A stretch of 64,000 nt of DNA, taken from NCBI GenBank assembly GCA_019915135.1, contig JAHLMK010000006.1:434001-498000 (forward strand), written 5' to 3'. The notes beneath the pieces are model-generated. The model saw only the letters and a list, made by a program, of their open reading frames with translations, was not told the origin of the DNA and did no database searches. Below are positions 12,132-33,141 of this stretch, piece after piece. Positions within the stretch are counted from its first letter, which is position 1; every line of letters starts with the position of its first letter. The position numbers and the translations under genes were made by a program. Source of the DNA: Strobilurus pachycystidiatus (taxonomy: Eukaryota > Basidiomycota > Agaricomycetes > Agaricales > Physalacriaceae).

Positions 12132-12383
12132 AGAGAACGGCAGGGAGCGTCGCGAGGGTGCTTGAGAAGCAGTAGAGGCCCCCCCCAATTGGGACGTAAG
12201 TCGCTTCCAGTCGATTCCTGCCCAATCTTACGTAGTCTTGAGGCGCACGACAATGAGATGGAGACAGAGGCCAGCTGGGGATGCAAGCAACACAAAAAGG
12301 CTATCAATACATTAGCTTATATCACAAACAACAATAAATGGACGCGATTGTAAGGAAAGATGAAGAAAATACATGGGGGACCA

Positions 12384-13058: not shown

Positions 13059-13240
13059 CCCTCTGTGTAGTGGCTAGAGAGAGAGAAAGGCCGTGAGAAC
13101 ATAGCCCAGGGCCGGCAGGATAACCGTACCGGTTGTGGAAGGGAAAGGCCTGTGGTTGTTGGCTATGCGGTGGTGCGCGTCCTAGTAGTAGGAAGCAAAT
13201 CAGCAACTCTTTAATGCTATTGCCTTAACGTCTGAGGTCA

Positions 13241-13612
13241 TTGGACCTTTATTGGACCGAAATCGCTTTACCGCAATTAAAAATTCTATGATAGTGAACT
13301 ATCATGTAGTGTATTTAAAAATGAATTGTAGTCGTTTTTATGAGGCCGAAAGTCAAGGTGGAAAGGATAGCAAGCTCAACTGGTCTCCGAGCGGAAATGA
13401 TCCTTCATTGGACCGGATTGGACCTCTACTGGACATCTATTGGACCTTTATGCCGGTTTTGCGCAATACGAAGACAAGAAAAATTTCCCTCGATAGGATT
13501 GTGGGACACATACATAGGAGTAAATACGAGCTACTCCGAGAACCAATGCGCGAGGTGCGAAAGAGATGTATCGAATTTGCCAACGGCCCGATGACTGGAC
13601 CTCTATTGGACC
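13241..13612. promoter_or_regulatory. Phased TTGGACC array, 2-4-2, element A
   Basis: Units YTGGACM start at 13241 and 13252; at 13408, 13418, 13429 and 13440; and at 13595 and 13606. Spacing within clusters is 10-11 bp, about one helical turn. Cluster starts are 167 and 187 bp apart. Element B has the same pattern at the same place. The array begins 183 bp upstream of gene 5. Two single TTGGACC sites follow at 13807 and 13877. I see nothing else in the spacer 13613-14430. Confidence 0.75.
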
Positions 13613-14430
13613 GATTCCAGAACGAGCTCCCGGTACATGGGACAAACCCGGGGGGTATCAGAGCACAAATAAAAGACTTCAAAGCTTGCATTTACGGTAG
13701 TCCGAGGGCAACTTGTGGCAGATGGACCCATAGTAAGCCAAAATGGTCGGAATCTGAGCGTGGGATACGTCGACTTCAAGCCTTTACTCCTGTCCGAGTC
13801 CTAGGTTTGGACCAGAAGTATATGGAGCCACCATGAGAAGTTGATTCCGACATATGTCACAGCGGACGAGATGCAATTGGACCTGGGATGTGAGATGTCG
13901 GTGTGGGGCGAAGGATGGCCGAAAGTCACTATGATGTGACACCAGGTTAAGACGATTAGATATCGGAACGCCCTTACCGATCATGTCCCTGGCTTAATGA
14001 CTCTCGGCCCTCGGGCTCGGGCTTAATGAGCTTAATGGCTTGGGCTTGCGGATTGGCGCTGCGTGTCGAGCTGGTTTGAGGCAAAAAGGTTAACTTTACT
14101 CGCAGCCCACTGACACAGTGGTCCTAGTCGCGCCGGTGGATTTGGTTCTTTCCAGAACCACTATGTCGTGGGCTGCCATGAAAATCTATGTTCACACAAA
14201 CTTTTTTCTGTTCGAGTTTGCCTCATTTCGGATTTTTTGCCTCTCGAGCAAGTCGAACATTCTTCTTTCCATTGTCATTCACGGATTTCTTCCAAAACAT
14301 CATATCATATTGAAGTCAGACATAATAATCTTTGCACTAAAACAGCCACAGATACAAACTATTATGATTTTTAGGCTACAAGAAAGCACGACGAAAGCAT
14401 GAGTACAAGAAAAGAAGACCGACTATAATG

Positions 14431-16733
14431 TTACAACATCGAGCTCAAAACCCACTCTACATCCTCGACGGCAAACACCCATTCGCCGAAACCCAAGACG
14501 TCGTCGGCGCATGCTTCGCCCCACCAAGCGAGGAAGGCGAGAACCGAGAAGTGTCCGTTGACACCACTGGTACGTAACTTTCCCCAATCGCCTCCGGCAG
14601 CTTGACGATGAATGTCGCGGAACGGCACGTCCTTGAGCTCGACGGAACGCCACGATGGCTGAAGACGAGCCCACCAAGGCCAGAATTGGTCCGCAAGCGT
14701 GCGGAATGCGAGGCTCGGTCGGTAATCGTGGGGGCGAGCGCGCTGAATCCACTCCTGGATCGAAGTCGGACGAATTCTGAAGGAGGGGATCGGCTTCCCA
14801 TTCTTCTGGAAATCCAGGGATTCTTCCAGTCTGACGTACGTCAAAAGGAGGCGAGACCAGGCCTCACCAAGAGGGAAGGCGTCCAAGAGCTTGTAGGCAT
14901 CTATAATGTAGTCGGGATGGGTGGAAGGTTGAGGTGGTAGACCACGAGAGCGCGTCGGAGAGGCGGGAGGGGGAGCAGGAATGGCGAGGACGTTCTCAAA
15001 GGGATGGAGCGAATCGTTGGGCCCACATGTCGGAATAGATGAAGAAGCCGCGCCTGTCAGAAGCATAGGGTCAATCATTGCATTCGTGACATCTGTCAAG
15101 ACGGCGCGCTGAGGCGCCGGAGTAGCAGTCTTGCCAGCGCCAGCAGCGCCGCCGCGAGAGATGGGTGATGGGGGAGCGCCAGAGGGGGCGGGAGGATTGT
15201 TCTCGGCGCTGGCGGCATCGTCCTCTTCGTCTGAGTCCTCAGGAGCAGGTACGGTCGAGCTCCCTTTCTTCCGCGGCTTTGACTCGTTGCCAGAGCGTTT
15301 ACGTTTACGTGTCGCTTCCTTCGGTCCTTTCTTCGCTTCGTTGGGGGCGACGGTTGGTGATGGGGGGTCAGACGTCGTTGGAGTCGGATTGTCAGAGTCC
15401 CAAGGATGTTCTTGGCGCATGAACCAAGGGAGCGTCTTCGGCATTTCGACATCGGGAAGTGAACGCGAGCGCTGTTGTTGTTCATCTACATTTCAGATTG
15501 TGAGTAAGGCGCTAGATCGAAAGAGAAAAACTTACTGAAGCTTGACATGCCAAATTCGCCAATCGCTGCTTCGTAAGTCTTGAAGCGACGCTTGCCGCGA
15601 TTGCCGTCCGCCTCATGAAAGGCCTTCGGCGCAGGTGCAGAATTCGTGCCAACGTTGATTCTGATGGAATAGTTAGACAGGGAAGACTGTGTAAATAGCA
15701 TACCAACGTTATCACGTTGACTTGTCCACCCTTCCGGGGTTCCGGGCCGCACCACGAGAAGGCGATATTTCCCCCAAGGACTGTCGACATGCCCTCAAGC
15801 AGAGGCTGAAGCGTGGCGGCCAAATTATCCAGGGCTCTGACACAAACAAATATTAGCTACGAGACAACAGGAAAAGTCAATTGACATACGCTTGCGTTTC
15901 CTCCGGCGATAAGAGCTGGGGTGCTTCCTGAGCTGCCGCTTTCCCCTTAGCAACGTCGAGAGCGTCCTCCTCCGCGCGCTTTCGCCAGTGTGCCTTCTCC
16001 TCTTCGGCGAGGCCATCCCATACCTCCATAGAGTAACTGGCAACTTCGTTGATTCGCCCACGGCGCGCGTCCTTCCCAGTCTCAAAGAAGTCTTCTTCGA
16101 ATTCCTTCTTGATGTTCGAGAAGCTCTCCTTCATCCACATCTGTGCGGGTGTGCGGGCGCGTTTGCGCGTGACGTCAAGCCCTGCAACCTTGCAGAGGAT
16201 GGCACCGATGGGGTCCTTCCCGAGTTGAGACTTTGAGAGTTTCGCAATCGGCGTGGCCTTGCTGAATTGTGTATCGTAATAGTTTCGGATTCCCTAAAAT
16301 GACGCGTGAATAGGATTCGAAAGTGTCAGATAGCACACGCACGACAGAGAGGCGTTCCAGTAACGCGGATTTCCGAGCTCGTTCGGACGGGGAAATCTCC
16401 AAGTCTAGAGGAAGTGCGGGAAGAGATGTGGGAGGCTCCTGGTCCATGGGTAGGTCGTATGGATATCTCGCGCACATTGCGTTGAAGACGGTATCGGCAA
16501 ATTCGACGCCGTGATTCTTACCCTTGCGACGCGCCGCAACATAACCGTCCATTCCGTCTTCGAGCATCTGCTTCCGTCTGCCCTTGGCCCATCCTCGACG
16601 AAAGGGCTGAACCGCAGCCGAATCAGATGCAGGGACCGTGGTATCAGGAGGAGTGAGCCTGCACGGAGATATCAGTATGTCAGTCAGACGCAATATCAGA
16701 TGTGAGATAGACTCCATACGTGACTGAATCCAT
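14431..16733 (-). CDS. KDZ cargo gene 6, copy A (680 aa, unknown)
   Basis: Six exons: 16733-16720 (14 nt), 16658-16343, 16293-15890, 15836-15708, 15660-15536 and 15485-14431, all in phase. Near the N-terminus: VQPFRRGWAKGRR. Middle: KVAGLDVTRKRARTPAQMW, then a charged segment, VWDGLAEEEKAHWRKRAEED, that resembles helices 2-3 of an HMG box (tentative). Then GGNIAFSWCGPEPRKGGQVN. A long Pro/Ser-rich basic stretch (TRKRKRSGNESKPRKKG) precedes a conserved C-terminal domain, FRTLADQFWPWWARLQPSWR ... WGKLRTSGVNGHFSVLAFLA, ending in WVLSSML. No enzymatic motif is seen. Confidence 0.8.
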
Positions 16734-16839
16734 GTAGTGAGCAATTGCGGCTGTAGAAACGCGTCTTTGGAGGTTGGAGATGGCGGACGCAGCAGAGAAG
16801 GGGAAGTAAACAAACGACGTTGCCAAATATTGCGGCAAA

Positions 16840-16990
16840 CCATCTTTGCTGGCAGCCCCGCGATGCCGTTTGATTGCTAGTGCCGGGACCCATTTGTGCC
16901 GGTAGCCCCGCAATGCCGTTTGATTCAGACTGCCGGCACCCATCTTTGCTGGCCAGCGCCGCGATGCCGTTTCGTTGCCATTGCATTGCC
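16840..16990. repeat. Three-copy 50-bp tandem repeat upstream of gene 6 (A)
   Basis: Copies begin at about 16840, 16891 and 16941. Each holds CATCTTTGCTGG- or CATTTGTGCCGG-like bases, then GCCCCGCGATGCCGTTTG. It lies 107 bp and more upstream of the gene 6 start, between genes 6 and 7, and has no counterpart seen in element B. Confidence 0.65.
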
Positions 16991-17041
16991 GACACCCAAA
17001 CCCCGCATTGAGAAAAAAACATGACACTTTGTACATAACGA

Positions 17042-17628
17042 TTACAGAGACAGCGGGAACCCTTGTTTCTCGTGCGTGAAATCTACCATCACCCACATCT
17101 CGAAGTCATCCAGCACTTCGACCAGCGACGTCTCAGCGCGAGAGAACCCCAGCGAGAGACGCGCCCGAACACTTTTCTCCTTCCTTCGGCTGCCTACCGC
17201 GGTTCGAACCAAATCTGCCAACGCCAATGTGACCTCCTGCGGATAGTTCTGAGACGTCCTCGGGCAAGATGTAGAGCTTACCTTGCAGCGCTTCGCGCGA
17301 CCCTCCCGCTCCTCAGGGAACATCCGGAACCAATGCGCGAACAGAGCGAGCAGATAATCGTCGCGGTCCCAGCCATCCGCACCGGCAAGGACACGCGTCA
17401 AGCTGTCCACCTCCTCGACCAACATATTGTATTGGCCGCGATTGAAGGTGAAGACACTGGGTTTAGGTAAGCAGGGAGCGAATCCGCGGACGGAGGGAAG
17501 ATTACTGACTGTCTTGTCCAGACTGGGTTCGGTCCGAAAGGGTTCACGACGTGGAGTGACTGCGAAGACCAACCAGCCGCTTCACCATCCGTCGCGCTTG
17601 CAATGTATTGAGATATGATGGGCGGCAT
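17042..17628 (-). CDS. KDZ cargo gene 7, element A only (162 aa, unknown)
   Basis: Exons 17628-17510, 17456-17282 and 17236-17042 join in phase. The product starts MPPIISQYIASATDGEAAGW and contains FNRGQYNMLVEEVDSLTRVL, then WDRDDYLLALFAHWFRMFPE, then ALADLVRTAVGSRRKEKSVR. It is helical and charged, with no domain I recognise. The right end of element B lacks it: only about 500 bp separate gene 6 from the TIR there, against about 1.46 kb here. Confidence 0.65.
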
Positions 17629-17755
17629 GGATCTGAGGGGAGGGAAGGAAAAATTGAGATGAGAAGCGGTTTATAAGGGAAGCGGGACTCGTACGTCAAA
17701 TGTAAGTCTTCTTGTTTGGTTCGGGTTGTGCATCGACAATATCCCACCTGGTTCT

Positions 17756-18040
17756 GTACACTGTCTGAATCTAATCCAAAGTTCATCCCTGTTCATGTGT
17801 GAAGCAATTTTAGTACAATACCGCGCCCAATCCCAGCGGGCGCGCGCTGGCGCGCGTGCGGCCCCGCCCCGCCCAAATTACACGTTTATCGGATTCTATA
17901 TACTGTCTGGATCTATTCCAAAGTGAATCTCTGTTTCGTCATTGAAGCAATGCAATTGTAGTGCAATACCGCGCCCAATTCCAGCGGGCGCGCGCGCGTG
18001 CTGCCCCCCGCCCAAAATACGCGTTGATCGGCAAATGCCG
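17756..18040. repeat. 145-bp tandem duplication with GC-rich core near right end of A
   Basis: Copy 1 begins near 17756 and copy 2 near 17902, each starting A-CTGTCTG-ATCTA. Each includes CAATACCGCGCCCAATYCCAG followed by GGGCGCGCGC and a C-rich tract (CCGCCC). It lies 150-430 bp inside the right TIR. Such GC-rich subterminal repeats may be transposase-binding or simply unstable sequence. Confidence 0.65.
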
Positions 18041-18191
18041 TGAAACACCGACATGCCAATTCCCAATTGGGCCGCGTCCGCGCATTTATTGACGACTTTC
18101 TTTGTTGACATGGCAAGCCTTGTGGATATTAAAAAAAGCCTGCTCATAGGCTAGGGCTTGGGGCTGTGGGTAGGGTTACATGGTTCCCAGT

Positions 18192-18267
18192 GGTTATAAC
18201 CTCCCATCTGGAAACGGCGCCTGTGGCTATAACCACTACATTACCCCAGGAATTACAGCTTGGCCTG
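18192..18267 (-). repeat. Right terminal inverted repeat of element A
   Basis: Read inward from 18267 it starts CAGGCCAAGC. The first palindrome, GGTTATAGCC on this strand, is at 18225-18234, exactly 33 bp from the tip; CGTTTCCA follows (18209-18216 reversed), and GGTTATAACC is at 18192-18201. It matches the right end of element B best (CAGGCCAWGC tip). Confidence 0.85.
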
Positions 18268-18274
18268 GATGTCT
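18268..18274. repeat. Right target site duplication of element A (GATGTCT)
   Basis: Exact copy of 4038-4044. Confidence 0.85.
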
Positions 18275-18332
18275 GGCCGTAAACGTCCCCCACCCACGGA
18301 AGAGTGTGTATAGATATTTATTATTGTGTATC

Positions 18333-21157
18333 ATGTCTTACTTCTCATGCAGGCAACGGCAACGTGCAAACGCTCTGAAACAAGAATCTAGGGCAAGGTA
18401 GGTGCCAACAAAGCCTTCAATCCACAAATTCATTGTGCTCTAGGAAACGGCTCGAAACCTTCGGAGCGGACGACATGATGGCCGTACAGCTCACTCCGGA
18501 TAATATGGCAACAATGGCACGAAGAGGACGTCCCGCCCGCTATAAGAAAGGTTTGATCTACATTCGGAGGTATCTACATGGGCTGATCATGCAACACATT
18601 AGAGCTTCCGTTACAGAGTGAACAGGCGTCGTTGCAGTCGCCATCCTTGGCTTTGCAGGGCTACTCTTCTTTCATGGTCTCCACTCATGTAGATTTCGAA
18701 CATGCTTGTATCACTATCGACGCACCTATGTGCACTACGACTTCGAACGGCGACGGTGTTCCCGAAGCCATTTTTGATGTGGTGACCTCACCCAGCTCTC
18801 CTTCAGACAACACTTTGAACGGTGACGGCCTTGTCCCGTTCACTCCTCCTCCATCGTTTTCATCCAGCCCATCCGCAGACAGCACTACGCCTTTGATCGG
18901 CGACGTCGTTCCCGGAGCCACCCCTCATCTGGAGACTTCACCCATCTCTCCTCCAGACAGCATCTTACACGGCCATGGTATACCCGTGTTCACTCATCCT
19001 CAGCCGACTTCGTCCACTCATCTCGCAGACAAAGCCTCAAATGGCGACGATGTTCACATGTCTCTCCTCTCACCCGCGACTTCACCCGTTCTTTCTCCAG
19101 ACAACATCTCAAATGGGGATGATGTTCCCGTCTTTCCTCTGGCGACTTTACTCACCTCTCGTCTGGACAATGCCTCGAACGACGACGGTCTTCCTCCGTC
19201 CACTTTACCCACCCCTCCCGCAGAAGATGCATTGAATGGCGATGGTACTCCAGTCTTTGGTCCGGCGACTGTACTCACCTCTCCTCTGGACAACGCCTCA
19301 AACGGCGACGATCTTTCCGCGATCATCCTTCCTCCGACCACTTCACCCACCCCTCACGCAGAAAATGCATCGAATTGCAATGATGTTCCCATGTCGTTCC
19401 TCCCATCGGCGTCTCCGTCTACTCCTCTTCCAAACAACGCCTTTGATAGCGGCTCTGATGTCGTCACAGATAAGGATGATGTCCCCATGAGTCCATTAAC
19501 GGATCTGCCCGAGGAATATACCAGTGCCCCCCCTTCACCGTCTTTCAGTAACCTGTCTCTCCAACCGACACTGTCAGTGGGCGAGTTCCCGGAGGGCAGC
19601 CGGTCATCATCTTGCCCGCCTGACACCTCATCAGTCAACTGCGCACCGGGTGACCAATCTGCAATTGCAGTCGAGGAGTCCGTGGCAGAGACTCCTTTAC
19701 GTGCTGCTGAATTGGACAATCAGGTTGACGTTGAAACGACTTCCTTTCCACCGAGCGAAGATTTGGCTAGTCCGACAGCTGTTTCGGCCCCGTTGGATAC
19801 ACCTCCGTTACCAAGTACGATTCTTATTGTTCCATATTCTGTCAAATTTAATCCAGTCTAGGCGTAGAAATCATATCACAGCGCAACTGTTAGCTTGGCT
19901 ACGTACCGTCTACTGTGATGTTGACGGTAGGCCATCCATTCGGACAAATGCTGCAACTCATCTGGCTGCTCATACCGCCAAGATGGAACAGTTATTCCCT
20001 ACTCTGAACGCCGTCACCTTCTTCCAGCTGCGCGACCACATCCACTTCCTGGACCACTTCGTTCAAACTTATTCCAACGATGCATCTTCAGACACCATCA
20101 GCCTCTGCGCTGCTGCGCAACAATCTTCTGCCACCGTGCAGGCTCGTATCGTCTCGAAGGCTGTCAGTCAAGCGGCAGCAAATAAGAAGATCTTACAGTC
20201 GGTTCGTTGGTTTAGCGTGTCGTTGCTAAGGTCACTGATATCAACTGGTGTTCTCCCAGGTCTTTCGTCGTTGCGCACAAACTCTACAGGAAAGCAAGAA
20301 CAACCGACACAATTTCACGCGCAACGACCTTCTCAAGTTGATGAGCGAAGCGCTTCTGAATGACTCTATTGTCAATGGTCTGCTCCTGATATGGTTTGAC
20401 GGCCACTACGTGGCAAGTCACCGTGTTGTTATCCTCACCACATACTTCGCTACCCGCTTTTTGTATGAGCTTAGCGACACTAGACCGACGACTGTCCCAT
20501 TGAAGAAAATACCAGAGGAGTTATTCGAGAAGGTCTTAAAAGATCGCCCACTCGTGGTATGAGCATGATCACAAAGCGTCGTCATCCCACTGATATCCCT
20601 ACAGGAAAACTTGGCAGAGCTTTCGGAGTGGCGGCGACTTATTATACCGATCAACAAAAGCGGGAACCATTGGATCAGTGTTGTTGTGGACTTCAAAAAA
20701 CCCTCCATCAGCATTTACGATAGCTGGTACCAGCGCCCAGGCGCGATGGAATGGAAACCAAAATCGGTGGATGGCGCTCTCATCAAAGTAGGTGTACCTT
20801 TGTGATATCTACATGCTGTTCACCCTTGTGTAAGATTGTTCGATCTCTCGTTGATTGCCTGTATATTCATTGTGGACTTTCGCCGATCAAATGGCAGCCT
20901 GCGACGCATTTTCGTACACATCCATTTGTAAGTGGGTTCTGTAACTTTGTCGATCCATGGCTCAGCGTTTGTAGATGCTCAGGCAGAGCAATGACATTGA
21001 TTGTGGAGTGTACACGCTTCTAAGGATTCGCCAGCTCGTCTTTGGCGACAGATTGAACCCCATTGAATTATCTCCTCTATATCACTTTTTGCAGTCACCG
21101 TCGATGACATTCACAAGAGCGTTATTTATGTACGATATCTACAAACATTTCACATGA
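18333..21157 (+). CDS. Ulp1/C48-type SUMO-protease-like protein, 819 aa
   Basis: Eight exons join in phase: 18333-18397, 18444-18550, 18603-19814, 19882-20201, 20260-20556, 20605-20787, 20835-20927 and 20975-21157. The N-terminus is basic (MSYFSCRQRQRANALKQESR). Residues about 75-460 are Ser/Pro-rich with degenerate repeats around NASNGDD-VPVF and ending in SP-rich tracts. The C-terminal protease domain has LNDSIVNGLLLIWF, GNHWISVVVD (His689), ISIYDSW (Asp706) and RQSNDIDCGVYTL (Gln763, Cys769), the His-Asp-Gln-Cys set of Ulp1 cysteine proteases, which remove SUMO or related modifiers. The set looks complete. Convergent with M2. Element A lies about 60 bp upstream of the start codon, so its promoter is probably altered. 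Confidence 0.85.
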
Positions 21158-21359
21158 TGAGGGTTTGCTACACAAGCATTTGGCAAATGACAATTCGATT
21201 GCAATTGGACACAACTAATCGAGACTACAGAACTATTCGATGGCGTAGATATACGACTTTTTTGGAGCGGAGACGGTAGCAAAGGGACATGGTGCAAGTA
21301 CAAGAGAGCGATATAAAAGCGGATACGGAAGACGGAATACAAGTACGTAGCAGGTGAGA

Positions 21360-24300
21360 TCAGTCGACAAATGAGTCCAAGATATGTGTGTGCAAGGGCA
21401 AGTCTTTCGCAGTTCCCTCATCCTTCTTACGAAGACCCAGCAAGACGACGCACTGGACATTGAAGGCAAAGGTTTCCCCATACTGCTGTTTATCCTTCTT
21501 CATCCACGTCTGAACTGAGTGTACGATGAGTACAAGGGCGTCCACCGGAAGCTCAGTGTTGCCGTTTCCGAACACTGGCCAACCGGCTGGGTCCGATGCC
21601 AGGCGGGCGAAATCCTGGTCTGTGAAGGCAAACGGCTTATACTTGCCTGCACCTCTACCGTCATAGATGGGAACTACTCGCTAGTTTAGAAAAAGGTCGT
21701 CATGCATAAACAATTGACATACTGGCGTCATCGAAGCCGGCAACCTGGAATTGTGGTACATAACGCAGGCTTGCCTGACTCTGTGCACCAAGGGGATTGA
21801 CGAAGGCCCGACGGGGTGAAGCTTGCATCGCTGATGCAATGTCAGCGGTGGATCCGGGTACTTCGAGCGTGTTCCCGGGCTTCGGTGGCGCAGGAGGAAC
21901 TGGAAAAGCATGAAGATCAAATCAAAGTTGAGGAAAGTCTAGACGTACTTTTCATTGGCCACACAGGCCAAGGCTTGTCGGGTCCACTCTTCTGCAAATC
22001 GGAAGTGTACTTCGCCATGGTCGTCGCCACATAGTAAGCGTAGACATTGTCTCCGGCGTTCTGAATACAAGCAGACTCCAATCCGCTGTTCTTGTTGAAA
22101 ACCTTCGCAAGGACAGAATTCGCCAGACGCTCCTCCTGGGTAAAAGGTGCAAAGGCTATTCCTCTTGTAGAAGAAGAGGGCGGCTTGGGGAACCTCCCAC
22201 AAAGACATGATACGACAACGGTAGCCAAGGTGCAGGCAAGCGGAGTACGCTCAGATCCCTGGAAGGCTAAACGCGATCCAATAGTGGAATTCGTAGTGTT
22301 GTACGGCTTTACCCGCAGAATGGCGGGGTCCACGCGAGCTAGGTGGATATAATCGCCCGACCGTTCAAAGGTCAAACCCAGGAAAATCGTCCTATGCGGT
22401 AATGAGTTTCGCGAAGAACGAACAGTAGTGTTAGCTTACGCGATGTTCGCTCGACTGTAGTGTTCTCCACACTGTTGCAAATCCGTCCTGTAGACCAAGA
22501 GTTTGCGGTCTTGGGTATAAGATGCGGCAAACTCGCAAAACCTGAAGCATGTCGTTGAGAGCTGTGTCATGACATCAAATGCTAATCACATACGGTAAAC
22601 TTATTCGGAACATCTTTGTAGAGCTTGCGAGCAGCAAACTCAGGTAGCATGACGGGCTGAGACCCCGGTCCAGCTGCCTTGAACGGATTCTCGTGGGCAA
22701 GGTCTCCCTCGTAGGCACCAACTGTTAATGGGTCAGACGAGAGTATATCGGCAAAAGTAGTAGACTCACAATCAGAAGGCTTATCAGAGTCAGTGGCCCC
22801 AGATGGCTCCGGTGCGAGACCGCCGTTGACTTCAAGACCGTTATCCGGTTGCTGATTGTCCAAGTTCATGGGTAAACCTGGCCCTTCGTCAACAGCTCTG
22901 GCCTTTCCCTTATCGACGGCAACAGGAGGGAGAGATTCGGTGGACGTTTCAGTGGAGATGAAGGCCGCCGAGTCAACTTGGGCAGGCTCTGAGGCACTCG
23001 CGTTAGATACAGATTGGAAACCTGTGAGATACGTGACAATGAGAACAATAGTCATACCAAGAGAGGTATGCCACATACCCGTCATTGGGTCCTCAGGTAG
23101 ACCATCGTCACTATCATCGACACGGGGACGCTTAGACCTGGAGACAAGAATCAAAGATTAGGAGTGATGTTCAAATCAGTACCGATGGCTTACATAGAGC
23201 CTAATGAGACAGATGGGACATCGTCGCCAGTACTGTCCCGTTTCTTGCGCTTTAGGTTCTTGAAATCTTGGAGATCGTTCGTCGAAATGCCGTAGTGAGT
23301 CTCCAGTAGAGCCAGCATAGCTGGCGTGAAGCTGGAAACCGAGTCCATGTCGACAGCAGACTCGCCACTGTCCGAGCACAAATCAATGACCTCGTCATTT
23401 GTGTCGTTACCAGCTTCATCGTGGTCTACATCGTCCTCGACAATGAAACCATCGAGGTCGTACCCATGCTTGGATTGGGGAAGGGCGGAATCGTTCTCGG
23501 TTGTCTCCGGTCCGCTCAGCTCTTCAGCCTCGCCATTTTCTTCAACTGCTTCATCGTCTATTAGCTTTTCTCCTCTGGGGAATCTACAACGGCTATTAGA
23601 GCTAAATCAATAAATATAACCATAAAACTTACAGTTCATCCGCGATGGACTCGACAATTTTGCCTGGTTTTTTCCTAGTGGGCAAATCAACAAATACGAA
23701 ACCGGAAATCATACTTAAACTTACACTTTTTTGGCCGCCAACTGCGGTCGGTCACTCGGCTCTATCTTGATAGTTTTCTCAACAGGTTCGGTCTTGATCT
23801 TCGAAGGCCTGAGAAGAGTCAGATGGCGGTCAACAAGAAATAAAAGAGCAACTCACAGAGGAGCAAGACTAGTTGCCATAGCCTTACGTTTCACGAGGAT
23901 TTTGAGACGAGAGACTTCTTTCTCCGCATCAAGCAGACGTTGCTGTTTGTCTCTGGAACGACGGTGTACAGCCTCAATTGTGGGAGAGCCCGGCGCCCTC
24001 ACAGCATCTTGTCTTAGCTCGAGTGGGGAGCGAAGAGCTACCGCAGAAGGTACGGGCATACCCTTGTATGAGGGTTGACCTGAAGCGACGGTGGGAGTAA
24101 GCTCTTTCAGAGCAGCCGACACTATGGCAAGCGTACTCCTCTTAACAGGACTTGGGGCAGCAGAAGCAGGAGGTGCAAAGGCGTCGAGGAAGTCGTTCTC
24201 GATAAGAGCTTTCTGAACTACTGCGAGAGTGCTTGACTTTGCCGGAAAGATAGACGGTTGTTGGGCTTGTCTGACAATCACGTATGAGGAGGATTAAAGA

Positions 24301-24377
24301 GAGCGAATAGAAGAAGAAACTCACGGAGTACAAGGAGCGGCGTTGGTTCCTTTTTTGTCAGAACGATTTGGACTACC
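21360..24377 (-). pseudogene. M2 gene, 3' part (split by element B)
   Basis: A multi-exon gene of unknown family reads leftward to the stop at 21360. Segments in order: a Ser/Ala/Pro-rich part with two alike motifs, STLAVVQKALIENDFLDAF and STLAIVSAALKELTP; a short coiled coil (RRSRDKQQRLLDAEKEVSRL) ending in a basic KRKAM; an acidic region (DDEAVEENGEAEELSGPETT); KRKKRDSTGDD; and a folded-looking C-terminal half (LTFERSGDYIHLARVDPAIL, then WPVFGNGNTELPVDALVLIV, then ETFAFNVQCVVLLGLRKKDE). The ATG at 24384 falls inside the transposon end and is not the native start. The true 5' exons are at 36697-37452. I infer loss of function, or expression of a truncated protein. Confidence 0.75.
24371..24377. 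repeat. Left target site duplication of element B (GGACTAC)
   Basis: GGACTAC precedes the element tip CAACCATTGC and recurs exactly at 36697-36703. Confidence 0.88.
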
Positions 24378-24454
24378 AACCATTGCACCTGGAGATAGGG
24401 AATATGAGTGGTTATAACCATTGATCTCGTTTCCACCTACAATGGTTATAACCA
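24378..24454 (+). repeat. Left terminal inverted repeat of element B
   Basis: The tip CAACCATTGC matches element A's left tip (CAACCATTTC). GGTTATAACC lies at 24411-24420 (33 bp in), CGTTTCCA at 24429-24436, and GGTTATAACC again at 24445-24454 (34 bp further). A third copy, GGTTACAACC, follows at 24489-24498. Confidence 0.88.
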
Positions 24455-24735
24455 GTGCTGAACAGCGGGGAAAAAGCCATAACTCGCTGGTTACAACCAG
24501 TGGTGGCTGTGTAGCCGCATTTAGCCTGTGTCCGTACCTACCCGACCACATATAGACCATTCCCCAGAGCTGCCATCGGCCAAATGTAGCAACTCGCATG
24601 GCAATTAGGACCATTCCAATTCAATTACACGTTTATTGATGGTGACTACTTGATTGAGCAAAAAATCGGTCGAAAACTAGAATGTCCGTGTGTACAATGT
24701 CCAAAAGAGATAGTAAGCTAGAAGAGGGAGGCGCA

Positions 24736-27700
24736 TCAGTCATCCAAAGTCGCATCGTCATCGTTTGCCGCCAGCGCACGCGCTGCAGCAAGCCCCTCGA
24801 TAGCCAGCTCGTCCTCAGACTCCGATTCCTCCACCTCTTCCCTGATCTCGATCCGATCCGGAATCCTCCTTTCACGAGACTTCCACGGCCGGGCCCACAT
24901 GTCAACGAAATGACTGGCAAGGCTGCGGCGGACCGCCGCCTGGCGATGAGCATACGCGCGAATTCCCGCCGCCAAGGCCGGACTAGCCTCGTCCCAACCA
25001 CTAGAGCGCTCCGTCAGCCACAGATCCGCCTCCCGCTCCAAAGAGACCACTATGCGCCGCTTCTCCTCAGTCAACAGCTGCACCTCTTCCGTCCAGCTCC
25101 TCGCCCTCGCCCTACTCTTCAGCCACTCAACCCGAACTGAATCGTTGAGCTCGTCGTTATTGTAAGAGTCGAGCGCGTTCTCCATTCGCCAGATCCAGGA
25201 AATTTCGTAACTGCCACTGCCGAGCTGTGTCTGCTGAGAATTGATGCCCGTCTTGCGTCGCTTTTCCGTGGGCTGGTCGACATCGAATATGAAGCTGTCC
25301 ATGGCACGTATGTCGGCATCCTCCAATACTCGGAGTTTCCCTTCCCAACCTCCCGGCCCTCGAAGCAACAGAAGCGCCGCTCGCGCTACTCGATACTTTT
25401 GCACCGCTAGATTCGACTTTGCCTCCAGGCGCTCGATGATGGCGAATGACCTCCCGGTTCTCTTCTGCCCTCGGACGTTTCGCTTTCGGAAGGCGGCAAC
25501 AGAACGACGCGTACGCTGCATCGATCGAATCGTTTCCAGCGCGTCATAGCACTGAGCCTCCCGCAGTTTATCCTCCTTCTCTGCTACCTCTCCAATACAT
25601 CCTTGGGCTCGTGCGGCAGGACTGAGAGCCGAAGGCATGAGGAGAAGTTCCGTCTCAACATCGCCCTCCCTGGATCCAGCGAGGTCTCTGATGGCGATCC
25701 TGACCGCTGGCATATATACGCTCTGGACGTCCCGCAACTGACGGAGCTGCCGCTGGAGCTGGGCACGCTTTTCCTGGATCTCTTTGACTACAGCGGGTGC
25801 GTCCTTGTTGTCGCTCTTCATTAGGTAGGTGACACGACGCCTAGCAAATGATGATTAGTGATAATACGGACGACTAGAAAGAAATACGCACTGCACGTCT
25901 TCAATCAGAAGACCTAATGCAACGCAGACCGACGGACTAGTCTCGTGTAGCGGGAATGAGGCGGCTTCAGCTTTGCGCTCCTCCTCTGCCAATTTCTGAC
26001 GAATAGTGTTTTCGCTGGCATCTAGAACCCATCAATACTCAATTGACAGAACGTAGGAGATAACTTACGAAGAGCGGGAAGAAAATAGGGATTTTCCTTC
26101 TCGCTATCTTGCTCCCATCCTTCCACTTGCTTTGTCCACTTGTCCGCGCATCCCGCCGGTAAGATTGCCGTGAACTCTTCGTGCGCTGATACGTGCGCTG
26201 ACCGTCCCTTGAGTGCCTGATAGTGTCGTCGATGAGTCAGTCTCCCTAAACAACGCATTAGAGAATTGAAAAAAGGCAGCTATGAAAGATAAACCTAATC
26301 CAGTCGTCTTCGCCCAATTATGGCTACTCATCTGCCGGTCCAGAATGTCATGCCGATGACCAGGCAGCATCTCCTTCGTTGCCGGCGCTGCGTTGTTCAA
26401 ACCCGACCATGTGCGTTCGATACCCTCGCCGTCCGTCCTGCCCACGCCATGTTGGATATTCATGCTGAATTTGACCTGGCACCCGATTTTGTGGCCCTTG
26501 CAGTGACATTTCGGGATGCCCCACGCCATCGCAAGATCGTCGGGAAGATGGAGACATTCTGGCATCCGACGCATGCGCTCGACGAAGTGTATCGACCATT
26601 GACAAACGATGTCGTACGACACAAAGATTTGACGGAGTCCTCGCGCCACGATACTCAGAGCTGATAGACTGATATAATCCATGTTACAGTATCTAGACAA
26701 GACAAATGAGAAATGGGTATAGCAAAGAGTCATTAGAAATTCTTACCGTTCACCGCGTTGCAGATCGCCCGCCCCGTTGGGGAGAATGAACTCGTGCCGC
26801 GCGCAAATTGTCATTCCAATGCCCGTTGAACGCAAGCCGGTTGCATTTTTGGATTCGGCATGGGCGAGCGTCTTGAAGCCTGCGCAAGAGCTGATCTGTA
26901 CCTCACGGTCAGTAAATAATCACAGGAAATAAGGAAAACCCACATCTTGCTGTTTCGGGTATAGAGCAATGTGCTCCAGATACGCCTGTAGCTCGACGAA
27001 GTAAGCCCACCCTGTGTGTAAGCCAGGGTCCACGGTACTCGGTCGACGCAAATTTTTGAGCCGAAAATTCGCGTCCAGGGCGATGATTAGTCGATAGAGA
27101 AATCTGAAAACATTGTTAGTCGACTGCAGAGTGAAAGATAACGAATCACATACTGTTGTTCGGCCGGCATAGACTCCCAGTTGGCAGGAAGATTGAAGCC
27201 AGGGCGCGGGCACGCTGGGCAGCGAAGCGCGAGCTCGCCTGAGGCCGTAAGAGCACGACCATCCTTCATAGCACCGCGTCCAACCCGCTTCAACATCTTG
27301 AGGTGTGCGAACTGGCGATTCATTCGAAGTAAAGACTTGTACCGGCTCTGGGATTTTTGATTAAACACAATCCCCGAATTAGAGAATAAGCAGCGTACCT
27401 TTGGCAGTGCGACTCCGGTATTATCAGTCATGCGTTCCAGCGCCTGATAGTATTCCAGCGTGCTGAGCTTGCCCGAAGCAGCGAGCATCTCGTAGCACTC
27501 CAACATCCGGAACGTAGCACCTGTTTTGGGGAATTTTGTCGTGGCAGGAAAGAGCTCTGTCCGTAGCATCTGGATGCGAAGCGGAGCGCGTTGATCGCAA
27601 CCACAGAAGTCGGCGTTAACTCGATGCACAGTGTTACCGTGGAGAATGGTAAAATTTGCGTGGGCGGGTTGGGGGTTGACGCAAGAGTTGACGTCCTGGT

Positions 27701-28350
27701 GGCCAATCTGAACGCGTAGACCAAGGCCCTTTAGAGTGACTGCTTCGTAGCATTGGCCGTTCCAACGCTACAACAAAAATCAACCACGGCACGAATATGA
27801 CAAGTAGAGGACGTACCTGGATACGATGCAGAGGATTACGAGTGTGGTGCAGGATTGTGCAGCTCAAGCACTCGGTGAATGTGCCCCAACAATCCTTGCA
27901 GCGAAATATAGCGTGTCCCGGCACGATCTCTTGAATACCGTTATAGCAGGTCTGGCAGGGCCTATCCGCGCTACCGATAGCTTCCAGACGCGTCATCTCC
28001 TCCAAAAACTCCTGCGGCATGCCATCGTCGACCCATTGCATTTGGTTCCGATCCTGCCGGACAGCGTCAAAGGACTACCCAAGGCAAAGAGTCGAGGAAC
28101 ATACGGGATTAGGTTTGCGCTGTAGTCTGGCGGTGGAAGGAGGGGGGATGTGAAAACGGTTGGTCCAGATGGCCGGCATGGCATTGGCGCCTTCGTCGCG
28201 TGCACAGCTTGTTGAGGCGGAAGTCGACATGCGCTTGCCATCTCGGGAGAGAGCGACTGTCCGCGCTTGAACAACCTGCAAATTATCGTAGTCTTCATGG
28301 TCGTCGGCGCGGACCGCCTTGAGGGTACGTTTTTTCGAAGGGGCCGGCAT
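24736..28350 (-). CDS. KDZ transposase with CxC2-like cysteine cluster, 1054 aa
   Basis: Ten exons join in phase: 28350-28105, 28053-27817, 27767-27399, 27347-27154, 27103-26944, 26895-26747, 26692-26295, 26245-26069, 26021-25892 and 25840-24736. N-terminal basic tail; Cys cluster at about residues 115-160 (CQTC, CKDCWGTFTECLSC, HH) typical of KDZ-associated CxC2 zinc-binding modules. RNase H-like core: LIIALDANFRLK (Asp359), SYDIVCQW (Asp479), KCHCKGHKIGC, and GVGRTDGEGIERTW (Glu541 or Glu544), giving a likely D-D-E triad. The helical C-terminus ends in an acidic tail (EEVEESESEDELAIEG). Expected role: cut-and-paste transposition in the nucleus, binding the TIRs. No lesion seen, so potentially active. 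Confidence 0.9.
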
Positions 28351-28484
28351 GGAAAGACAAAGAAGTGGGAGTCGGTCGCATGTTGGTCACGGCGCTCAAC
28401 AAGTTTGGGGCTGTGGCTGTGTTTGGCCTCGAGATCACTTCATGTCCTTCTTTTAATTTAACAAGCTTTAAGTCGCAATCTAAT

Positions 28485-29025
28485 CTACGGATCCCCTGCC
28501 GTGTTCTGGTCGCCGCCATCGTTCTCCTCGCCGCCATCGTTCTCCTCGCCACCAACAATCTCCTCGCCACCAACAATCTGCTTGTGGCAAGCACACAAAC
28601 ACCTGGACTGCCAGCTAACATCATAGCTGATCATGACTTCCGGCGACGGCACCGACATCGCGCGAGCAAGAGCCACATCCAGTTCACTATTACCTGTAAT
28701 GAGGTAGAGCTGGAAAGAATGGTGCAGCGACATACGAGGGGGAAATGGACAAGCGTTCTCCGATCACAAACTCGCTCTGACTCTGAAGACTGCCCATCGC
28801 GCATTCAGTAGACACGAGGACAAGACGAGGACGACAGACTTACTGCTTGGCTTCATTTTGTCGCATGGCCTTCAATCGCCAGTTTCCATCGGAGCTATAG
28901 ATGCGAGTCAATAAGGTGCGCCCCAGGTTACTATTCAAATGCACTTACGCCACAAAACGTTCTCCGCCCCACGACGTACTGCTCTTCTTGACCTTGAAGC
29001 GATTCCTGGACTGCGAGCTCGGCAT
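28485..29025 (-). CDS. KDZ cargo gene 2, copy B (121 aa, small Cys-containing protein)
   Basis: Exons 29025-28949, 28894-28844, 28789-28694 and 28626-28485 join in phase. Start MPSSQSRNRFKVKKSSTSWG is basic. The core SYDVSWQSRCLCACHKQ matches copy A. The tail is four 6-residue repeats (IVGGEE, IVGGEE, NDGGEE, NDGGDQ) encoded by an 18-bp tandem repeat at about 28505-28577. The C-C-C-H pattern could bind a metal. The stop lies 135 bp from the transposase start, so the gene is read toward the transposase. Function unknown. Confidence 0.65.
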
Positions 29026-29257
29026 GGTGGGCAAAGGTGAGAGATCGAGTACGGGAGTAGAGCGACTCACTCACGATATTAGAGTCGCAGCGACAGACAT
29101 CGAAGAGTCCTGTCGTACATAATGGATGCGCCCTGCTTCTATCCTTGGACGGACACGTGTGTTGGCCTTCACTCATTACCTCCATCACTGACCTCAACTT
29201 GACGAGGTAAAAGCTAATCAGTACTGTTAACGGACGTGCTAATGATTTTCGAGACAG

Positions 29258-29719
29258 ATGTATGTTTGCACGGAAAAGCAAGTTCTCGCGTTTTGCAAAT
29301 ATTGTCTGTCGTACCATACGACGCGCCACCTCGAGTTCTTCGATATGTGGCTCCAGGCCTGGATCGATACGGTGCTTCTTCACGTTCAACCCGAATTAGC
29401 GGCACTAGCCTCAGACGTTTTATTCAATGTATGTTGTTACACTTACTTGAATGTTCATGCTCATGCTCACTGCAATGTGCAGATCGTCCTTGGCGAAGTC
29501 GAGCGCAGTTATGATGCTGCTGCCGTGGAGGCAATGCTGTCAATGGAGGACGACATCCAGGATCTTACCTACGGAATGTATCAGCTTTCCTTGTACACTC
29601 GTTGGGACCCGGATTCGATGAGAAGCATTTCGGATACATGGCGGACGTCGCCATCGCCCTGGCCCTCCTCATCACGCACCGGATGGGAATCTTATAGAGA
29701 CGACCTTTGGGGCAATTGA
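29258..29719 (+). CDS. KDZ cargo gene 3, copy B (unknown protein)
   Basis: Two exons, 29258-29428 and 29483-29719. The product reads MYVCTEKQVLAFCKYCLSYH ... FFDMWLQAWIDTVLLHVQPE, then an acidic middle and a Ser/Trp-rich tail ending YRDDLWGN. The intron position and position on the plus strand between genes 2 and 4 match element A. ATG 29258 directly follows an AG, so an upstream exon is possible; the open stretch at 29122-29218 does not join cleanly. Divergent from gene 2. Confidence 0.55.
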   Translation: MYVCTEKQVLAFCKYCLSYHTTRHLEFFDMWLQAWIDTVLLHVQPELAALASDVLFNVCCYTYLNVHAHAHCNVQIVLGEVERSYDAAAVEAMLSMEDDIQDLTYGMYQLSLYTRWDPDSMRSISDTWRTSPSPWPSSSRTGWESYRDDLWGN

Positions 29720-29912
29720 GTTGAAGCAGGCAGAGGGTTCCGAGATCACTCGATAAATACAATGTCATACAGATATTTTTAATTTTAAGTGGTCCGTATA
29801 ACGATGAAGGCGAGTATAGCGAAATAAAAAGCAACAAGATATAAAGTAGAATAATATGATATCGGACTAAAAAGATGCGGGAGATAGGGCGGCAGATATA
29901 TATAATTTACGA

Positions 29913-30840
29913 TTAAAACTCGGGACCCCAAACAGGCGAGAGCGAGCGCGGGCGAGGCGGCGCTGCGCGTCTGGCGCGTACGAGCTCTAGCAAGGATGGA
30001 CCTTTGCGAGCAGCCTGCATCTCTTGCACCCATTTTCCGACATCGCGATCCATGGCTTCTGTGTCCTCCTCCTCCGATTTGACATCGGTCTGAAGTCCAA
30101 CGGCAGTGGCCTCGGTTCCTTCACTCGCAACGTCCATGACAGCGTCGGGAATATCATCGTCGAGGGACTCTGTCGACGTGAACGAGAGGGAGGAAGAGAT
30201 GGATGGAGATGGAGACCATGAGGAAGAGAGGGACGGAGACCGGGAGGAATCGACAGCGGCAGGGGACGCGTCTCTCACAGCGGCAGGAGACGCGTCTCTC
30301 ACGACAGGGGACGCGTCTCTGGACTGGTCGGACGCGACAGAGGGCTCGGCAACGCGCTCAGGTTTGACGAGCCGACGAGGGCGAGGGCGAGGGCGAGGCT
30401 GACCGTCATAAATGACGAGGTTCTTGCGCCGCTCCCAGAGGCCGTGCTCGTTCTGGACCGTCATTAACTTGCGGCATCCCCACAACAGTCCGAAACAGAG
30501 GTTCTAAAAGTCACAATCAGAGAGGACTATGAGCAAGACGCGTTGAGTACATACCTTGCAACGCTTGTTGAAGCGTTTCAAGTGATCCTCTTTCGTCTCA
30601 TCGAGGAGACGGGGCAGCGGAAACTCGACGGTGTGCAGCGTTTCAAAACGCTGACGAAAGGCCTTGATATCACCGTTCCGTTTGTGGACGCGCGCAAGCT
30701 CGCGGGCGGAGCTGATGAAGAATGGAGCCTCGTCGGCGGTGAAGCACTACGCATCGATATCAGCAGGGACGCGACGCGTCAAGGAAGGGGAGACGTACCT
30801 TAGGAAAGGCAGGAGGAGCCAGGAAAGTCTGCTGAGACAT
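29913..30840 (-). CDS. KDZ cargo gene 4, copy B (274 aa)
   Basis: Exons 30840-30799, 30746-30555 and 30503-29913 (42, 192 and 591 bp). Start MSQQTFLAPPAFPKCFTADE; charged helical middle (RVHKRNGDIKAFRQRFETLH); a run of Pro-Arg dipeptides; then Ser-rich repeats with DASPVVRDASPAAVRDASPA encoded by an 18-24 bp minisatellite near 30250-30320. Ends SLSPVWGPEF, as in A. Same place and orientation as copy A. Function unknown. Confidence 0.78.
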
Positions 30841-30951
30841 TTTGAAGGCTGAGGACGCGTCGATTGCGAGCTGGAGTGAAAGGAGGTGGGAGACGAAGGA
30901 TTTAGAGTTTTTGCCTCGTTTTGTCGACGGAAGTGTGCCGACGACGACTCC

Positions 30952-30980
30952 GCTACTCAGCAACAACTCAGCTGTCAGGC
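30952..30980. promoter_or_regulatory. Conserved upstream motif of cargo gene 4 (B)
   Basis: GCTACTCAGC, then AACTCAGCTGTCAGGC, 112 bp upstream of gene 4. It is the counterpart of 12104-12131 in element A, where the distance is 118 bp. Confidence 0.5.
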
Positions 30981-31191
30981 GAGAGTCGGCAAAGAAAGAT
31001 GCACACACCACGCGAGAAGAGGCATAGCTAGATCGTAGATGGGGAGAATCGCATGAGAGGCGCTGCTCATTTACGTACAGAACTAGCGCAACGGCGGTGC
31101 GTGAGGACCTGAAAATGCGTTAATAGAGGGGCCAGCGACGAGTGGGGCGATGATAACGTACAGTTCAAACCAATGTTATATTTTGGACCTG

Positions 31192-31857
31192 CTACTTTTG
31201 CTGATAGAGAAGTTGGCGGCGGCGCTTTGCTGTTTTGAGCGACCGAGCCTTGGCGTGTTGAAGGAGGTCCTCGAGAAGGGAATGCACACTTTCGAAGTGG
31301 GCGCGCATCTCGAGGGCATCCTTCGCGTACTCATGTCCCATCCCCGCCTCGTCTTGAATCTGCCCTACGCCTTCCCGCACGTACTCTAACTTTTCGCGAT
31401 AGAAGAACTCCTTGGTGGAAATGAGGTCGAATCCCGCGGCCCAGTCCATCTCCTCGAATTGCTCTACCAGTTTGGCGGCGTAAGCGATGAGGTTATTGCT
31501 GCTGTCTGCACGCAATTCGGCATCGACTAGGCGGAGCCGGCGAAGGACGCGCTTGCAGAGCGCGTCGTCGAAGTACCTAGCAGATTGATTAGCCAGTTCA
31601 GAGAAAGAAGAGAGCACGCACTTGACTGGCGCCGCCTGTGGAGCCTGCGCGCGACGACGTTTGCCTTCTTTGCGGGCTTGGACATCGTACCGACGTTTTT
31701 GCGCCTGGAGTTGGGATTCCCGGTTTCTGGCTCGTTGCCGTCAGCGTCAGAGGAGTGGAGATGCAACGACAACGCACTTAAAGTACCATCGAAGGCGTTT
31801 ATCCTTCTCCGCCTGGGCTTTCTCCTCCGGGGTGTTGTATAATTTCTTGCGGCCCAT
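31192..31857 (-). CDS. KDZ cargo gene 5, copy B (189 aa, MGRKKLY family)
   Basis: Exons 31857-31778, 31726-31622 and 31576-31192: 80, 105 and 385 bp, identical in length to copy A. Start MGRKKLYNTPEEKAQAEKDK; basic middle (QAQKRRYDVQARKEGKRRR); core YFDDALCKRVLRRLRLVDAE; basic end SLKTAKRRRQLLYQQK. Equal total length (189 residues) despite many substitutions points to purifying selection on the protein. Function unknown; nucleic-acid binding is possible from its charge. Confidence 0.82.
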
Positions 31858-32033
31858 GGTGGCGGTAGTAACTAGAGAGAGGCCTCGTCAGTCTAAGAAT
31901 GCAGGCGCTAGGCAATACGAGGGCTTACAAAAGGTATTGGAGTGGTTGTAGCCAGTCAAAGGGAGGTAGCACAGGTGAGCGTACGAACGGAATCAGCAAT
32001 TGCTCTGGGTACTTGCCTTAGGAAACGAGATCA

Positions 32034-32404
32034 CTGGACTTCTATTGGACCTTTATTCTTACCTCTCACAAATAAAATCGGAAAAAATTCGTAGCGTTAA
32101 AATACAATTGATTATGGTTTTAGGTATTTTTTGGGGAGCAAGAATAGTGACGAATGACTGTTGTCGTCGTCGACAGTCTGAACGTGAATGGAATGATGAT
32201 TGGACTGCTACTGGACTTCTATTGGACTACTACTGGACCGTTATCATAGCTCCCTAGAGAAAGCGAGTACCCATAAAATGGCAACGCGTAGACCTGAGGG
32301 ACGTGTAAGTGATCAATGTTTCGCAAATCCGAGGACGACCTGTTTGAATGGTGAGTTATACGGATATCATTTGTCTCGGCATTTTAATGGACCTTAATTG
32401 GACC
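32034..32404. promoter_or_regulatory. Phased TTGGACC array, 2-4-2, element B
   Basis: Units start at 32034 and 32045; at 32200, 32211, 32222 and 32233; and at 32387 and 32398. Spacing is exactly 11 bp within each cluster. Cluster starts are 166 and 187 bp apart, against 167 and 187 in element A. The array begins 177 bp upstream of gene 5. The sequence between clusters is not alike in the two elements. Confidence 0.75.
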
Positions 32405-33137
32405 GAAATGGTAGCGGTCCGTGCAGGGAGTGGACAGTCTGGGAAAGAGTGAGTAATCAAGGATAAGACGCTGGACAGTCACTTCGTCGCGATCCGGGAG
32501 TGTTTTCTTGACTGAGCCTCGATAGTAAGTCCAAAGAGTTGCCTACAGTTTGATTGGACCATTTCATTTCGGAACATAGGTGCTGTTCCGGAAGACCGAA
32601 TACCAGAGGCATCGCGAGCAGACAGCTAGACAAGCACAGCATGACCATGAGCGCCAGCGGGAAGGGTACAACCGTTCATTACTGAAGGTAGAGTTTATGC
32701 GACTCGTCGTTCTCGGAAGAGGTGGTCCGGCTAAAAGCGCCGAGCAGTCATTCTGATGTGACAAGGGACTGGCCAAGCCGGTTCGATTGATCTAATTGAT
32801 GTCTTGTACGTGATACGTGATCCTGGTGCAACTTGGTATACGGCACAAAACTCCTGTACTACCCACAGCCAGATGGCATACTGGTTCTGAGCACTGAAGA
32901 ACCAGTGTTGAGTACCAGGTCCCATCTGGCTGTGTATTTTGGATCATACAATCGTCAGTCATTTTTAATTTTCCGGACTTTCGGCTATCGTCTCGCGGAC
33001 CGCCCTTAATTTTGATAACCTCATGTTGATGTTTTCTAATTTTGTTCCAGGTACACTATAGTCTCCGCGCATCACTGCCGCCATGTGCATGATGCATATT
33101 TACGCCGGATAACTCACGTCAACAGCGCATATTCTAT
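32405..33137. other. Spacer in element B without a gene
   Basis: Short, overlapping open frames only; none shows intron logic or resembles a cargo gene of element A. One isolated TTGGACC lies at about 32565. I see nothing else. Confidence 0.5.
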
Positions 33138-33141
33138 TCAG

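Follow-up and report, generated by a model that had tools for sequence, protein, structure and literature searches.

Multi-site internal cis elements are already known in transposons, and elements such as En/Spm and Ac each carry several short transposase-binding sites as subterminal repeats next to their ends. The transpositional enhancer of phage Mu is described as an internal site that acts in cis with both ends, is bound by the transposase and is assisted by a DNA-bending protein (PMC3362531, PMC5847225), and the title of a cited work places it at the Mu operator. For the VANC proteins of Arabidopsis VANDAL elements, PMC5735166 reports that VANC21 binds a short 9-base motif, that VANC6 recognizes other motifs and that VANC targets are often tandem repeats in non-coding DNA. 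For Kyakuja transposons, Kojima 2025 (PMC12730594) describes two families with 7 base pair (bp) target duplications, CA..TG ends and no terminal inverted repeats, as opposed to the 8-bp duplications of Zisupton and one Dileera family, and reads the TET/JBP genes of other Kyakuja elements as anti-silencing functions. Here we describe an array of short TGGAC-core sites in two KDZ transposons, A and B, that lie in a 64,000-nucleotide stretch of Strobilurus pachycystidiatus DNA (the window; contig JAHLMK010000006.1, C6:434001-498000), and in their relatives in the same genome. We know of no requirement in cis of KDZ transposons beyond their ends, and an internal array in such elements was not described in the titles and abstract openings listed by searches of an open-access library.

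The first-pass annotation of the window proposed that YTGGACY sites in A and B form clusters of two, four and two, with 10-11 bp between sites and 166-167 and 187 bp between the first sites of successive clusters. The sites lie where it placed them, with one per element differing in its outer letter, and the first-to-first distances measure 167 and 187 bp in A and 166 and 187 bp in B. The clusters, including a fourth in B, are:

13241..13258, forward strand: 5' pair of A (13241, 13252)
13408..13446, forward strand: middle cluster of A, four sites (13408, 13418, 13440 and, as CTGGACA with its outer letter off YTGGACY, 13429)
13595..13612, forward strand: 3' pair of A (13595, 13606)
32034..32051, forward strand: 5' pair of B (32034, 32045)
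32200..32239, forward strand: middle cluster of B, four sites (32200, 32211, 32222, 32233)
32387..32404, forward strand: 3' pair of B (32398 and, as ATGGACC with its outer letter off YTGGACY, 32387)
32554..32560, forward strand: fourth cluster of B, a single TTGGACC site 156 bp past the last 3' site

Within a cluster the sites form an 11-bp tandem repeat, Tandem Repeats Finder lists the middle cluster of B at 32201-32238, and in the array a 10-bp step precedes an 11-bp step. Bare YTGGACY is itself enriched in the window (48 matches compared with 32.4 expected, and 48 or more in 0 of 100 shuffles); the evidential weight is in the layout of the sites rather than in this count.

The layout recurs across the genome (51,781,917 bases in 61 contigs), where the pattern TGGAC-N6-TGGAC-N{136,166}-TGGAC-N{5,6}-TGGAC has 65 matches (39 forward, 26 reverse) at 26 loci and the reversed pattern, used as control, has none on either strand. 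Together with L066, L039 and L040 these make 29 tabulated array loci, A and B included, with 21 different 400-bp array regions. Seventeen representatives were tabulated after omission of L040, L064 and L065 (near-identical to L039, A and L045, respectively) and of L052 (derived from L049), and L048, which has a single pair, was set aside. The further copies keep both sites and spacing, the favorable outcome of a check that the first-pass annotation had asked for: within a searched range of 150-160 bp, the last middle and the first 3' site lie 154 bp apart at three loci, 155 bp at 17 and 156 bp at nine, and the first 3' site at this step is an exact TGGAC at 27 of the 29, with one mismatch in L039 and L040. 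A further exact TGGAC lies 154-157 bp beyond the last 3' site at 16 loci; the remaining 13, A among them, belong to the A group and have no exact fourth-cluster site, though in nine of them a site with one mismatch is present. The full array thus follows a 2-4-2-1 order, most gaps measuring 147-150 bp. The three clusters proposed at first stand, a fourth and the recurrence of a gap of about 148 bp had been overlooked, and the middle cluster has only three clear sites in some copies. Measured between 7-mers, gap 2 is 147 bp in one representative, 148 bp in ten and 149 bp in six, gap 1 is 148-150 bp in 12 of the 17, and gap 3 is 147-150 bp in the 16 loci with a fourth cluster; a gap of nucleosome-core length (about 147 bp) is found in 17 of 17 representatives for gap 2 and in 12 of 17 for gap 1. 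L052 equals L049 minus exactly one 11-bp unit and has three middle sites and a first step still of 157 bp. Among 126 sites picked by their T[AG]GAC core, whose letters are therefore given and not discovered, 118 have A at -2, and 124 have a pyrimidine at -1 (T in 99, C in 25). A second repeat, containing TGGACCGGACTGGACC and TGGACCGGTCYTGGACC, is present at several places in the genome (e.g., C1:3351908, C1:3443002 in L047, C1:5080067); it is apparently a different family and inflates simple pair searches.

The length of the gaps is better kept than their sequence. The spacers of A and B hardly align, with an identity of 0.37 in spacer 1 (0.32 shuffled, z 2.1) and 0.33 in spacer 2 (0.30 shuffled, z 1.3), and the decayed tandem repeat with alignable spacers that had been named as a refutation was not what we found. 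Across seven groups, z is below 2 for spacer 2 in 15 of 21 pairs, but 3.2-5.2 in B/L066, L060/L068, L066/L068 and L060/L039. The proposal that the DNA between clusters is unlike while sites and spacing are kept thus holds for spacer 2, which is near chance, but not fully for spacer 1, in which most group pairs share a faint similarity that suggests retained common ancestry or function. Insertions and deletions point the same way as the lengths: in 15 pairs drawn from six A-group members, and so not independent of one another, there are 0.29 gap events per 100 bp in the array, 0.98 in the left promoter DNA and 0.82 in the right flank, at mean identities of 67.5%, 70.0% and 51.2%, respectively. 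For example, A and L043, which are similarly diverged throughout (79.7, 79.0 and 75.8% identity in left, array and right), show no gap event across the 372 bp of array, as against 2 in the 177 bp on its left and 9 in the 710 bp on its right. L041 and L042 likewise show none across 530 bp of array (73.6%), as against 12 in 1,270 bp on the left (46%) and 11 in 740 bp on the right (65.1%).

The boundaries of A and B, against which retention of the array can be judged, are as follows:

4045..18267: element A, complete transposon of 14,223 bp, with the 7-bp target duplication GATGTCT on both sides and 5'-CA..TG-3' ends
24377..36696: element B, complete transposon of 12,320 bp, with the 7-bp target duplication GGACTAC
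18192..18267: right end of A, with subterminal GGYTATAACC repeats and the terminus ..TTACAGCTTGGCCTG

The termini of the elements read CAACCATT.. and ..TGGCCTG, that is 5'-CA..TG-3' without terminal inverted repeats, and A has its right end in common with L043, L044 and L045. Subterminal near-palindromes like GGTTATAACC, the only sequences that the two ends have in common, lie at window positions 4078, 18192, 18225, 24410, 24444, 36620 and 36654 and are perhaps transposase-end sites separate from the array. Because of the 7-bp duplications, the CA..TG ends and the missing terminal inverted repeats, as compared with the 8-bp duplications of Zisupton and one Dileera family, and given their KDZ transposase, Kyakuja-like KDZ DNA transposons appears a fitting label for A and B.

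Two complete elements with exact 7-bp duplications, L041 (4,432 bp, GAAGGGA) and L042 (4,515 bp, TGGTATG), match the open reading frames of A and B at the ends and the array only and have no gene 5, the gene next to the array in A and B, by tblastn. The two are best conserved at their ends and in an array block of about 1.1 kilobases (kb), with 55-85 matches per 100 columns; elsewhere, a stretch near 1,150-1,350 has 63-66 and most of the rest 25-58. A partly degenerate array also accompanies an exact 7-bp duplication in L046, L079 and L081 and a duplication with one mismatch in L047, and L082 and L084 retain traces of an array; the core is TAGAC in L081 and L082. The absence of genes was tested directly for L041 and L042 and was judged for the other copies from size, similarity and the lack of a KDZ or gene-5 match among those listed. 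No 7-bp duplication was found for L077, L078, L082, L083 and L084 in the stretches examined. A right-end pattern built from five array-bearing elements and allowing up to two mismatches has 36 matches in the genome (0 for the control), and an array stands beside 31 of the 36, a share that counts partial arrays, was judged by eye and is possibly flattering because the pattern was made from array-bearing elements. The right ends counted as lacking an array are L077 and L078 (153-bp end fragments with the same flank), L080, L083 (which has no element similarity) and C11:1585631, which is 20 kb from an array. The array lies about 0.8-5 kb from the right end. Since gene-less copies keep the array together with the ends, the array would seem to be more than a promoter of gene 5.

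Gene 5 lies at the left of the array in both elements, at the distance of about 180 bp that the first-pass annotation gave:

12387..13058, reverse strand: gene 5 of A (start MGRKKLY..), with presumed introns and a predicted ATG 183 bp left of the array
31195..31857, reverse strand: gene 5 of B, with a predicted ATG 177 bp left of the array

In many groups an A/T-rich stretch, often AATAAAA, follows shortly past the 5' pair (e.g., 13274-13286 and 32070-32078); it may belong to the promoter of gene 5, which is on the opposite strand. The B gene-5 protein has 58 matches in the genome at 32 loci, and its 24 best homologues (E <= 4.6e-24), which are all of the tabulated loci except L041, L042, L057, L058 and L061, adjoin an array without exception. 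The next four, L069-L072 (E 3e-14 to 1e-11), have the core TAGAC. In L070, L071 and L072 the repeats stand at steps of 186 and 156-157 bp, with comparable distances of 188 bp (second 5' to last middle site) and 154-155 bp in A and B, and the array of L069 is irregular and mixes TGGAC with TAGAC. Among the four weakest gene-5 matches, L073 has a single site upstream of gene 5, L075 and L076 have two or three TTCATTAGAC-like units there at 13-bp intervals, and L074 has no array site. We infer that a simple site near gene 5 came first and was later built up into an array. An apparent further gene, similar in all four of L073-L076, starts near the place where the array is expected (e.g., from about 370 in the reverse complement of L075). 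Through its association with the array, gene 5 is the leading candidate for the protein that reads it. A model of the main open reading frame of B gene 5, made from three input sequences, consists of helices (mean predicted local distance difference test score (pLDDT) 75, and about 58-60, a low-confidence value, in the basic first helix) and has no match in the PDB at E <= 0.001; Pfam matches are sub-threshold only, and the protein database holds one homologue (P0001).

We think it quite possible, just short of an even chance, that the array serves Kyakuja-type (KDZ) transposons as an internal cis-acting assembly site in their mobilization. The AYTGGACY sites would be bound by a protein that the element itself encodes, with the gene 5 product or a transposase domain as the most probable candidates, and sites 10-11 bp apart would be occupied side by side, because such steps suit a protein that reads one face of double-stranded DNA. 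Clusters of two, four, two and often one site at gaps of about 148 bp would constrain the intervening DNA to a single fold, possibly with one histone octamer wrapped in each gap, and the resulting compact complex would license or stimulate the transposition of any DNA that has the array and the ends, in the manner of the internal enhancer of phage Mu. We infer this binder, fold and role in transposition from sites and spacing that are observed. Of the three roles first proposed for one-face binding (enhancer, partition or centromere-like site, accessory transposition site), the last is favored by the gene-less copies that keep array and ends.

A number of observations weigh against an assembly site of this kind. 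Apart from the possibly flattering share of array-bearing right ends, for six of the 29 arrays the nearest 6.5 kb contain no right-end match, the gaps of L081 are altered, and L080 is a 1.79-kb copy with an exact duplication and no array, which questions a strict need for the array; an internal deletion after insertion would look alike. In five of the 17 representatives gap 1 is longer, at 159 bp in L059 and L062 and 168 bp in L041, L042 and L058; L062 contains a 10-bp tandem duplication in this gap, and in the other four the leading middle site may have decayed. Spacer 1 gives z >= 2 in nine of ten pairs (6.6 for A/L060), and its alignments show conserved islands. Not every comparison of gap events is favorable or informative: the pairs A/L045 and L043/L045, with none in the array and 10 and 11 to the right, are weaker proof, the right flank being 57-58% and the array 73% identical; in B/L062 the array, with 2 in 360 bp, is no poorer in gap events than the left (0 in 119 bp) or right flank (2 in 326 bp); and L059/L060 (0, 0 and 1) carries little information. 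The arrays of L070-L072 are reduced to one clear 5' site, one middle site and one or two 3' sites, and their register is ambiguous, since, judged by the flanks, their 5' site would correspond to the first of the 5' pair in A and B, while the few sites upstream of gene 5 in L073, L075 and L076 fit an original promoter role. Finally, no dinucleotide periodicity of 10-10.5 bp was found in 34 gap stretches, four of them mis-parsed through stray gap 1 sites in L043, L049, L058 and L068 (at 10, 10.25 and 10.5 bp, z is -0.3, -0.8 and 0.7 for WW and -1.8, -1.4 and -0.6 for SS); a WW z of 3.0 at 11 bp is one of 16 tests. A missing periodicity is compatible with a nucleosome in the gap.

A chromatin ruler is an unlikely, though conceivable, function for the array. 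The 2-4-2-1 clusters would be set so that each gap of about 148 bp wraps exactly one nucleosome, and the resulting particle, rather than the sequence of the intervening DNA, would license transposition or escape from silencing; a related lineage would have re-tuned the core from TGGAC to TAGAC together with its reader and kept a similar, reduced ruler.

The main rival to the assembly site, which we regard as rather unlikely, is an anti-silencing dock, at which an element protein bound to the array would block DNA methylation or heterochromatin as VANC proteins do, so that only unsilenced copies are mobile and gene-less copies keep the array. Short sites, a pair of related cores (TGGAC and TAGAC) and gene-less retention all match the VANC pattern, and the TET/JBP genes of other Kyakuja elements would suit such a function. 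However, VANC target repeats are stated to vary considerably between related elements (PMC5735166), whereas the second step here is held at 154-156 bp, and neither A nor B has a match to TET/JBP cargo, for which the genome has 13 matches, none above the cut-off.

We consider it improbable that the array serves gene 5 alone, as an operator or upstream activating region to which the gene 5 product or a host factor binds. The start of the array 177-183 bp from the predicted ATG, its presence at 24 of 24 strong gene-5 homologues and the one to three TTCAYTAGAC-like sites upstream of gene 5 in the distant L073, L075 and L076 would all be expected of such a region. L041 and L042, in which tblastn finds no gene 5, nevertheless keep the array ungapped over 530 bp, and L057, L058 and L061 have no gene-5 match among those listed.

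More doubtful still is the use of the array by a host chromatin or transcription factor, such as the CCAAT-binding HAP/NF-Y, as an enhancer, insulator or nucleosome-phasing barrier. The T that precedes the T[AG]GAC core in 99 of 126 sites does complete a CCAAT on the complementary strand of those with a TGGAC core, and gaps of about 147 bp would suit nucleosomes between bound clusters. Yet C precedes the core in 25 of the 126, TAGAC sites have no CCAAT, and the gaps lack a 10-10.5 bp periodicity. A CCAAT complex covers more than 11 bp, and a change of core within one genome better fits an element-encoded reader.

A decayed tandem repeat or pure inheritance without function is very improbable: the 11-bp repeat inside clusters, the sharing of everything by close copies and the faint common ancestry in spacer 1 would agree with it, but it appears largely refuted by cluster spacing kept across groups whose spacer 2 identity is near chance and by gap events that, over the 15 A-group pairs, are rarer in the array than in the similarly conserved left promoter DNA. 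A partition or centromere-like site has nothing in its support, and each of the 26 pattern loci lies near either a gene-5 match (21 loci) or the right end of an element (5 loci).

The remaining annotated features of A and B are the transposase exons and a gene across the array from gene 5:

6786..7187, reverse strand: KDZ transposase exon of A (PF18758, E 1.2e-36)
7844..8263, reverse strand: CxC2 cysteine cluster of the KDZ transposase of A (PF18803, E 1.8e-35)
26107..26742, reverse strand: KDZ transposase exon of B (PF18758, E 3.1e-37)
27090..27767, reverse strand: CxC2 cysteine cluster of B (PF18803, E 6.3e-38)
14434..16876, reverse strand: gene of A across the array, its 3' end facing the array, with a weak HMG-box match at 15880-16293 (E 0.014, below the Pfam cut-off)
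33841..36063, reverse strand: corresponding gene of B, with weak HMG-box matches at 35250-35681 (best E 0.011, below the cut-off)

A and B have in common a short stretch of gene 4, gene 5 and the gene with weak HMG-box similarity, whose structure model is weak (mean pLDDT 59). KDZ domain matches in the genome number at least 174, counted exon by exon. The array regions of B (32034) and of L054 and L055 (C1:5449667 and C1:5463009, 13.3 kb apart) are identical over 400 bp, and B therefore looks recently active or recently duplicated. Similarly, L043 (C27:257000-266900) and L044 (C27:332600-342500), about 75 kb apart, are 99.97% identical over 9,693 bp and share a right end within different flanks, which suggests recent copies. 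A tandem repeat of 60/120-bp period with about three to six copies at 51275-51624 of the window is apparently unrelated to the array.

The array is a concrete candidate for a requirement in cis of KDZ transposons besides their ends. An assembly site predicts that changing a gap by half a helical turn lowers activity and that a change by a whole turn spares it; if the gap corresponds to a nucleosome, a mobile element would have written nucleosome length into its own structure. In addition, two site cores in one genome offer a route to the reader protein and its specificity residues.

Compared with the systems described above, A and B resemble Kyakuja in their 7-bp target duplications, 5'-CA..TG-3' ends, lack of terminal inverted repeats and KDZ transposase with a CxC cluster; they differ in having no TET/JBP match and in the internal array, of which the description in PMC12730594, as far as consulted, gives no counterpart. 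The likeness to phage Mu is an internal site in cis in copies with proper ends (31 of 36 right ends, with L080 as an exception), although Mu is bacterial and its enhancer has a demonstrated role in transposition, whereas the role here is proposed. With VANC/VANDAL (PMC5735166) the array shares a short, element-specific motif that is repeated in non-coding DNA and differs in its core between related elements; the repeats vary considerably there and spacing is rigid here, and the reader is element-encoded there and a candidate for being so here. Unlike the subterminal repeats of En/Spm and Ac, this array lies far inside the element relative to the right end, and A and B have separate subterminal repeats of the GGTTATAACC type. 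We know of no counterpart of the steps of about 148 bp in the Mu enhancer, and what is new here is the combination of nucleosome-length steps, 2-4-2-1 order and change of core.

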